Assembly: GCF_030623445.1 (NCBI RefSeq)
Contig: NZ_CP130613.1
Location: 372,001-436,000, forward strand
Reading direction: 5' to 3'
DNA length: 64,000 bases
Origin: Pseudogemmatithrix spongiicola
GTDB lineage: Bacteria; Gemmatimonadota; Gemmatimonadetes; Gemmatimonadales; Gemmatimonadaceae
Of the stretch, positions 27,706-32,476 are shown piece after piece. Under the pieces are notes generated by a model, which was not told the origin of the DNA, did no database searches, and was given only the letters and a program-made list of their open reading frames with translations. The position numbers and the translations under genes were made by a program. Numbering within the stretch: the stretch's first letter is position 1; every line of letters begins with the position of its first letter.

Positions 27706-31406
<3,701 letters not shown>

Positions 31407-31410
<4 letters not shown>

Positions 31411-32327
31411 GATGCCGCCTCCGTGCCCCGGTCCGCCTGCACCGTGCGTGCGCGAAGGCCGAGCAGGTGGCAGATGGCGTACGTGAGGTCGGCGCGGTTG
31501 AGCGTATAGAAGTGGAACTCCTTCACGCCGGCCTGGGCGAGCTGCGTGACCTGTTCGGCGACCAGCGACGCGGCGACCAGCTTGCGGGTCTCGGGATCGT
31601 CCTCGAGCCCTTCGAAATGCTTCGCGAAGGCGCTCGGCACGCTCGCGCCGGCGACCTTCGCGAACTTCGCCGTCTGCGTGAAGTTCGTGACGGGCATGAT
31701 GCCCGGCACGATCGGCGCGGTGATGCCGGCCTTGCGGGCGCGGTCCACGAAGCGCAGGTAGGCCCAGTTGTCGAAGAAGAACTGGGTGATGGCGCGCGTC
31801 GCGCCGGCGTCGAGCTTGCGCTTGAGGTTGTCGAGGTCTTCCTGCGGCGACTTCGCCTCGGGATGCACCTCAGGATACGCAGCGACCGAGACCTCGAAGT
31901 CGCGGCGCTTGCGCAGGCCTTCCACGAGCTCCGCGGCGTAGGCGTAGCCACCCGGGGTGGGGAAGTAGGGCGCATCGCCACCGGGGATGTCACCGCGCAG
32001 CGCGACCACGTGGCGGACGCCGGCGTTCCAGTAGTCGTCGGCGACGGCGTCGATTTCCTCGCGCGTCGCGGCCACGCAGGTCAGGTGCGCGGCCGGCACC
32101 AGGGAGGTCTCCTGCAGGATGCGATGCACCGTGTGGTGCGTGCGCTCGCGCGTGGAGCCGCCGGCGCCGTAGGTCACCGACACGAAGTGCGGCGTGAGCG
32201 GCGCGAGCCGCTGGATGGACTTCCAGAGCGTGGCCTCCATCTCGTCGGTCTTCGGCGGGAAGAACTCGAAGGAGATCTGGAAGGGCGCGGGGGCGGGCGC
32301 GGCTGCGCTGGCGGAGCTGGCTGTCAC
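31407..32327 (-). CDS. metF: 5,10-methylenetetrahydrofolate reductase
   Basis: About 306 aa from GTG 32327, preferred because TGGGA lies 6 nt upstream; a GTG at 32345 gives a six-residue longer product that would begin directly after the leader hairpin. Family marks are [12 protein letters not shown] near the start, [59 protein letters not shown] and the C-terminal [15 protein letters not shown]. It reduces methylene-THF to methyl-THF with FAD and supplies the substrate of MetH, encoded in the overlapping next gene. The 5' leader holds a promoter and a SAM-II-type riboswitch, so expression should fall when SAM is plentiful. Confidence 0.95.
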
Positions 32328-32348
32328 GGTGGTTCCCAAAAGCACGAA

Positions 32349-32376
32349 GGCCCGGAGCGAGGAGGCGCACCGGGCC
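32349..32376 (-). terminator. GC hairpin between riboswitch and metF start
   Basis: On the minus strand GGCCCGG and CCGGGCC pair around a 14-nt loop, starting immediately after the last riboswitch base and followed by TTCGTGCTTTTG. It could be the expression platform, as an intrinsic terminator or translation block. The T-rich tail is weak, so the mechanism is open. Confidence 0.5.
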
Positions 32377-32429
32377 GGCGCTTTAGCTGAATGTTTAACG
32401 TGGCCGCAAGTTGCCTCGAAATCGCCACG
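32377..32429 (-). ncRNA. SAM-II-type riboswitch candidate upstream of metF-metH
   Basis: Read on the minus strand the 53-nt segment has the SAM-II layout. P1 is CGTGGC (32429-32424) pairing with GCCACG (32404-32399). The loop between starts with GATTT and contains CTTGC before the closing strand. After P1 come TTAAAC and then GCTAAAG with GCC, which can reach back to GGC in the loop to form the H-type pseudoknot. GATTT, TTGC, TAAA and GCTAAAG are the conserved blocks I associate with the metA/SAM-II motif, and the length fits its compact aptamer. It binds S-adenosylmethionine and turns down methionine genes. The promoter lies just upstream and metF-metH downstream. Assigned from memory of the motif, not by a covariance search. 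Confidence 0.7.
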
Positions 32430-32447
32430 GAATCGGTTGTGGACTAT

Positions 32448-32476
32448 ATCCTAGCATCCGGATGAACGGATGGCAA
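32448..32476 (-). promoter_or_regulatory. sigma-70-like promoter of the metF-metH operon
   Basis: On the minus strand TTGCCA (32476-32471) and TAGGAT (32453-32448) are separated by 17 bp. Transcription would begin near 32441, about 12 nt before the riboswitch P1 stem, so the full aptamer would be in the leader. Confidence 0.6.

Follow-up and report, generated by a model that had tools for sequence, protein, structure and literature searches.

SAM-II riboswitches (Rfam RF00521, SAM_alpha) have been assigned to proteobacterial regulons that comprise metY, hom, metA, metX, metC and metW, with metF and metH not among their published members (PMC4239095). Control of termination by such elements was proposed earlier for many alphaproteobacterial copies and for Sinorhizobium meliloti metZ (PMC9373788), in which a Rho-independent terminator lies directly behind the aptamer and is predicted to form on SAM binding, so this mode of action is not in itself new. 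Proteobacteria also contain a protein sensor, the SAH-responsive repressor SahR, whose core targets are sahR, ahcY, metH, metF and metK and whose relatives recognize sites with the consensus core ATC-10nt-GAT (PMC4239095). One proteobacterial precedent for the presence of both SAM_alpha and SahR control on an operon has been published, hom-metXC of Oceanicaulis alexandrii (PMC4239095).

The locus described here resembles that precedent in carrying both elements on one operon, and differs in that the O. alexandrii case is a single genome with other genes, while the double arrangement is kept across a family on metF-metH. What is new, judged from sequence comparison, is the taxon and the target of the SAM-II element and its place in a leader that also holds a SahR-type operator.

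A SAM-II aptamer before metF-metH in Gemmatimonadota

Leader and operon lie on the minus strand of the window, the 64-kb stretch of NZ_CP130613.1 that was analyzed and whose numbering supplies the coordinates below. Reading of the minus strand gives, in order, TTGCCA, a 17-nt spacer, TAGGAT, the aptamer, a GC hairpin, metF and metH, with the following features.

32471..32476 (-), promoter -35 element TTGCCA, from sequence; TTGACA in many relatives, its distance kept in most metF leaders
32456..32471 (-), predicted SahR-type operator ATCCGTTCATCCGGAT, a 16-bp palindrome ATC-N10-GAT in the -35/-10 spacer, from leader comparison and the SahR-family consensus (PMC4239095)
32448..32453 (-), promoter -10 element TAGGAT, 17 nt after the -35 element, from sequence compared with metF leaders of relatives
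32363..32438 (-), SAM-II aptamer according to the Rfam model (1-79), 44.9 bits against a gathering score of 36 bits
32424..32429 (-), P1 5' arm CGTGGC, from sequence and Rfam alignment
32413..32417 (-), GAGGC, part of the P2 pseudoknot 5' strand and proposed antiterminator 5' strand
32399..32404 (-), P1 3' arm GCCACG, from sequence and Rfam alignment
32377..32387 (-), P2 pseudoknot 3' strand GCTAAAGCGCC, aligned to the Rfam consensus around GCUAAAg
32370..32376 (-), 5' arm of the terminator-like hairpin, GGCCCGG, the stem being kept in relatives
32362..32366 (-), GCCTC in the hairpin loop, complement of 32413-32417 and proposed antiterminator 3' strand
32349..32355 (-), 3' arm of the terminator-like hairpin, CCGGGCC
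32338..32348 (-), T-rich tail TTCGTGCTTTT, weak in this genus and TTTTTCGTTT-like in other genera
31407..32327 (-), metF, methylenetetrahydrofolate reductase, GTG start (TIGR00676, NF006950, PF02219)
27706..31410 (-), metH, B12-dependent methionine synthase (TIGR02082, NF007024)

A first-pass annotation had read from the letters the promoter, an aptamer-like segment with the CGTGGC/GCCACG stem and GATTT, CTTGC, TTAAA and GCTAAAG blocks, and a GC hairpin before metF (32376-32349), and each of these was found at its place. Its assignment of the segment to the SAM-II type also stood: when the whole window was searched with cmscan (Rfam 15), RF00521 matched at 32438-32363 (-) with an E-value of 7e-7 and was the sole family above gathering in the 64 kb. 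The alignment runs over the full length of the model, which extends into the terminator hairpin, and the GAUUU, CUUGC, UUAAA and GCUAAAG blocks and P1 are all kept. Relatives retain the blocks and the stem in front of metF, a point on which the first-pass annotation had made its reading depend, and in one relative (leader L118) P1 carries a double change to CGAGGC/GCCTCG. Both P2 strands are present; a permutation test of their distal pairing, own against swapped, gave only a weak signal (z -1.9, P 0.03). The SAM-V model gave no match in the window even at an E-value of 5, and this alternative riboswitch class was ruled out. By these sequence criteria the element before metF is a true SAM-II riboswitch, and SAM is inferred to be its ligand. 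It shares with described SAM-II elements the full-length match over gathering, the blocks, P1, the pseudoknot strands and a methionine gene downstream; it differs in its occurrence in Gemmatimonadota and in its metF-metH target, as the published regulons are proteobacterial and contain other met genes (PMC4239095).

The gene assignments rest on NCBIfam equivalogs, MetF scoring over the cut-offs of NF006950 and TIGR00676 and MetH over that of TIGR02082; the metF stop and metH start share 4 nt (ATGA). The likely metF start is the GTG at 32327, ~21 nt past the hairpin and ~35 nt past the Rfam match. All 22 of the best metF relatives in named genomes come from Gemmatimonadaceae or Gemmatimonadota, and the host is a Gemmatimonadaceae bacterium, which bears out the earlier suggestion that the use of SAM-II extends to a metF-metH operon if the host belongs to Gemmatimonadota.

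This occurrence is not an isolated one. SAM-II matches were found in 262 of 395 Gemmatimonadota genomes (over the cut-off in 221) and in none of 14 control genomes, and the host genome has a second copy before metX (C1:919863-919936). The genes that follow ~120 of these leaders include metF (then metH), metH and a bifunctional homocysteine methyltransferase/MTHFR gene, as well as metX, the O-acetylhomoserine sulfhydrylase gene metY, the homoserine dehydrogenase gene hom and, in four genomes, panB; nearly all function in methionine synthesis. The frequency of SAM-II in the phylum and its position before many methionine genes therefore make it a normal methionine-control element of Gemmatimonadota. 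The 14 loci around proteobacterial metF relatives contained no Rfam element at gathering, so the link between SAM-II and metF does not appear to be proteobacterial, and capture of a single alphaproteobacterial copy is disfavored both by these empty loci and by the distribution across the phylum. We found no report of SAM-II in Gemmatimonadota or Gemmatimonadetes in the open-licence literature, although Rfam full alignments or GenBank annotations may already list matches. Thus the first-pass view that this element lies outside the usual proteobacterial setting holds as far as the literature found goes, but the locus is one of many in its phylum.

The panB (ketopantoate hydroxymethyltransferase) genes behind SAM-II (L030/L230 in G127, L122/L231 in G036, L026/L232 in G190 and L023/L233 in G300) form a separate observation, as panB is not among the targets listed in the SAM-II literature examined. 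The genes behind panB resemble those for threonine synthase and homoserine kinase in G127, and those for DAHP synthase and prephenate dehydratase in G190 and G300 (all named by eye).

A SahR-type operator in the promoter spacer

The palindrome ATCCGTTCATCCGGAT is found in 28 of 29 metF leaders (25 exact, 3 with two mismatches) and is missing from all 90 SAM-II leaders that precede other genes; the promoter bases that flank it vary among metF leaders. At two or fewer mismatches the host genome contains five such sites: the exact one at metF, two that overlap at C1:970484-970507, and two (2159177 and 2893644) that are inside coding sequence and were taken as chance. The double operator just reaches the beginning of a gene (C1:970506-971441) whose product combines an ArsR-type HTH (PF01022) with a methyltransferase domain (PF08241; L166 3007-3942), and the next gene on the same strand is ahcY, which encodes SAH hydrolase. 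Across the family, ahcY adjoins this gene on the same strand in 30 of 30 genomes and the operator (at three or fewer mismatches) lies upstream of it in 29 of 30, with only one other site beyond these loci in the 113 kb searched. The host metK, at 1478797, is away from all operator sites.

We call this gene SahR-like on the basis of its domain layout, its ahcY neighbor and the operator. The system has in common with the described SahR regulon (PMC4239095 and work cited there) an ArsR HTH and methyltransferase-like regulator beside ahcY, an operator that accompanies both the regulator gene and metF/metH, and the ATC-N10-GAT core; the proteobacterial motif is a 20-bp palindrome (PMC4239095), whereas 16 bp are fixed in Gemmatimonadota. 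It is therefore predicted that metF-metH is probably a SahR target at its promoter, with SAH as the expected effector. The presence of ATCCGTTCATCCGGAT both at metF and at sahR-ahcY, together with the SAM-II aptamer, suggests that metF-metH is probably under double control, while metX has SAM-II only and sahR-ahcY the operator only. The region had been called a complete control region in the first-pass annotation, and this is accurate for the SAM-II elements, all of which are there, but the SahR-type operator occupying the spacer between -35 and -10 had been missed.

A terminator-like hairpin and its partner strands

The GC hairpin (32376-32349) stands directly behind the aptamer, and together with its T-rich tail it outscores shuffled versions of the 70-nt stretch (1000 dinucleotide shuffles, P ~0.002); over 119 leaders the terminator score against shuffles has a median z of 3.0. 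Among the 29 distinct metF leaders, a hairpin directly follows the aptamer in every case and a T-rich tail in most, and the five outer stem pairs are standard in all 29 with several pair types, although these changes were not counted as covariation events because the stem registers are unaligned. The start codon in this class is often 50-110 nt away. The hairpin is, as read from its sequence, Rho-independent-terminator-like, its tail being weak in this genus.

Within the terminator loop, 24 of the 29 metF leaders carry GCCTC, which is complementary to the GAGGC of the P2 5' strand. The complementarity extends to 6-8 bp in 14 leaders, in part through matched changes (TCGAGGC with GCCTCGA, TGGAGGC with GCCTCCA), and the longest antiterminator block is 5.8 compared with 4.0 for shuffled hairpins. 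The P2 5' strand pairs better with its own hairpin than with hairpins swapped within the same class, for metF leaders with z -3.7 and for metX/hom/metY leaders with z -3.8, and metH-like leaders use the P2 3' strand instead, where GCUAAAACGC pairs with GCGUUUUGGC in the terminator loop (z -4.1), all three values being uncorrected for relatedness. The same swap test gave no signal for the P2 3' strand in the metF class (z 0.2), and this strand was rejected as the antiterminator there. Exceptions include L035 and L037, close relatives of which one is a Gemmatimonas phototrophica MAG, which have GCGCTC instead of GCCTC in the loop and keep the aptamer, operator and terminator, so their antiterminator, if any, must differ; in L049, L057 and L118 the pairing is shorter or of another kind. 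It is plausible from these patterns that the GAGGC/GCCTC pairing acts as a SAM-controlled antiterminator, and the earlier idea that the adjoining hairpin hints at how the element acts is supported, since the hairpin is terminator-like and an aptamer strand could serve as its antiterminator partner.

When the growing window transcript was folded, P1 formed first, the antiterminator had the lowest energy at lengths of 88-96 nt, and from 100 nt on the fold consisted of P1 and the terminator. Over the full leader the terminator fold is favored over the antiterminator by 8.7 kcal/mol (pseudoknot not counted), so release must be kinetic, or termination leaky.

A different pairing is also available, as AAAGCGC in the aptamer tail (32384-32378) can pair with GTGCTTT in the terminator tail (32345-32339), giving a longer hairpin in which the U-tract is hidden. 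SAM-bound P2 would block this pairing, a second possible way of tuning termination.

Not all copies in the phylum carry a terminator. In five leaders (L008, L012, L015, L017 and L124) SAM-II lacks one, the start codon follows GCTAA by ~9 nt, and the target is the bifunctional homocysteine methyltransferase/MTHFR gene; of these, L008, L012 and L124 probably block ribosomes directly, so both expression platforms would coexist in Gemmatimonadota. Relative to S. meliloti metZ (PMC9373788), the metF leader belongs to another phylum and gene, no SahR-type operator is described for metZ, and here the competing strand is traced across ~100 leaders. What is added here, as far as sequence comparison goes, is the tracing, across a phylum, of two candidate competing strands that are used as alternatives.

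Rickettsiella and Coxiellaceae MAGs (L079 2366-2440, L078 1778-1850) also contain a SAM-II-like block set; it falls below the Rfam gathering score, and a gene that by eye resembles metE follows 220-290 nt downstream. Their terminator loop GCTTTAGC is the exact complement of GCTAAAGC, and they are possibly a divergent SAM-II group with the same strand competition.

Two predicted sensors in series on metF-metH

We propose, with a probability of about 0.78, that the metF-metH leader combines a SahR-type operator with a SAM-II attenuator that includes an antiterminator, placing two sensors in series. Its starting points, all seen in the sequence, are the match to the aptamer model, the hairpin with its terminator character, the complementarity kept between aptamer and loop, the operator and the sahR-ahcY link; to these it adds SAM and SAH as presumed ligands and a presumed direction of repression, termination and release. 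A SahR-like repressor, made from sahR-ahcY elsewhere in the genome, would bind the palindrome between the -35 and -10 elements and keep the promoter blocked until displaced by its effector, which is expected to be SAH. In the nascent leader, bound SAM would let P1 and the pseudoknot keep both P2 strands occupied, so that the terminator forms and transcription ends before metF. At low SAM, the P2 5' strand (GAGGC) and its neighbors would pair with the first half and loop (GCCTC) of the terminator once these are made, and this antiterminator would delay the terminator and let polymerase into metF-metH. The switch would be kinetic, requiring that the antiterminator form in time without SAM.

The aptamer might instead control translation, with the SAM-bound pseudoknot or hairpin hiding the metF ribosome site and the hairpin serving as a spacer or stability element. 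The best-studied SAM-II, that of metX from a marine metagenome, conceals the Shine-Dalgarno sequence in P2, the metF GTG is close to the hairpin, the U-tract is weak in the window, and the copies L008, L012 and L124 probably work in this way. We regard this as unlikely for metF, whose leaders all have the terminator-like hairpin, mostly with a T-rich tail, and often a distant start codon, and because the loop block complementary to the aptamer would have no role in occluding a ribosome site. A chance likeness or a decayed, non-functional copy is far less probable still; the weak U-tract is all that speaks for it, against a score well over gathering, a single family in 64 kb, the retention of every block and conservation through the family.

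The protein sensor invites a similar question, as the spacer palindrome could be the site of another regulator or a promoter feature, in which case metF-metH would not be a SahR target. Because the palindrome overlaps the promoter, part of its conservation could reflect promoter constraint. We judge this reading improbable, slightly more so than translational control, given that the palindrome is absent from the promoters of the other SAM-II leaders and recurs upstream of the sahR-like gene and almost nowhere else.

If two sensors do act in series, high SAH would free the promoter, so that SAH is hydrolyzed and homocysteine remethylated. We lean, with some reserve, towards a gate on methylation balance in which metF-metH of Gemmatimonadaceae would be fully on only at high SAH and low SAM, while metX would read SAM only and sahR-ahcY SAH only.

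These comparisons turn SAM-II from a mainly alphaproteobacterial element into one that is also standard in the methionine control of a second phylum, where metF and metH are among its targets. They also supply an extensive set of natural sequences bearing on the way in which SAM-II could control termination, a question that is described in the literature as experimentally open, in that one of the two pseudoknot strands has a candidate rival partner inside the terminator, and which strand this is differs by gene class. In addition, the stacking of a predicted SAH protein sensor and a SAM RNA sensor on one operon across a whole family would provide a testable case of ratio sensing.
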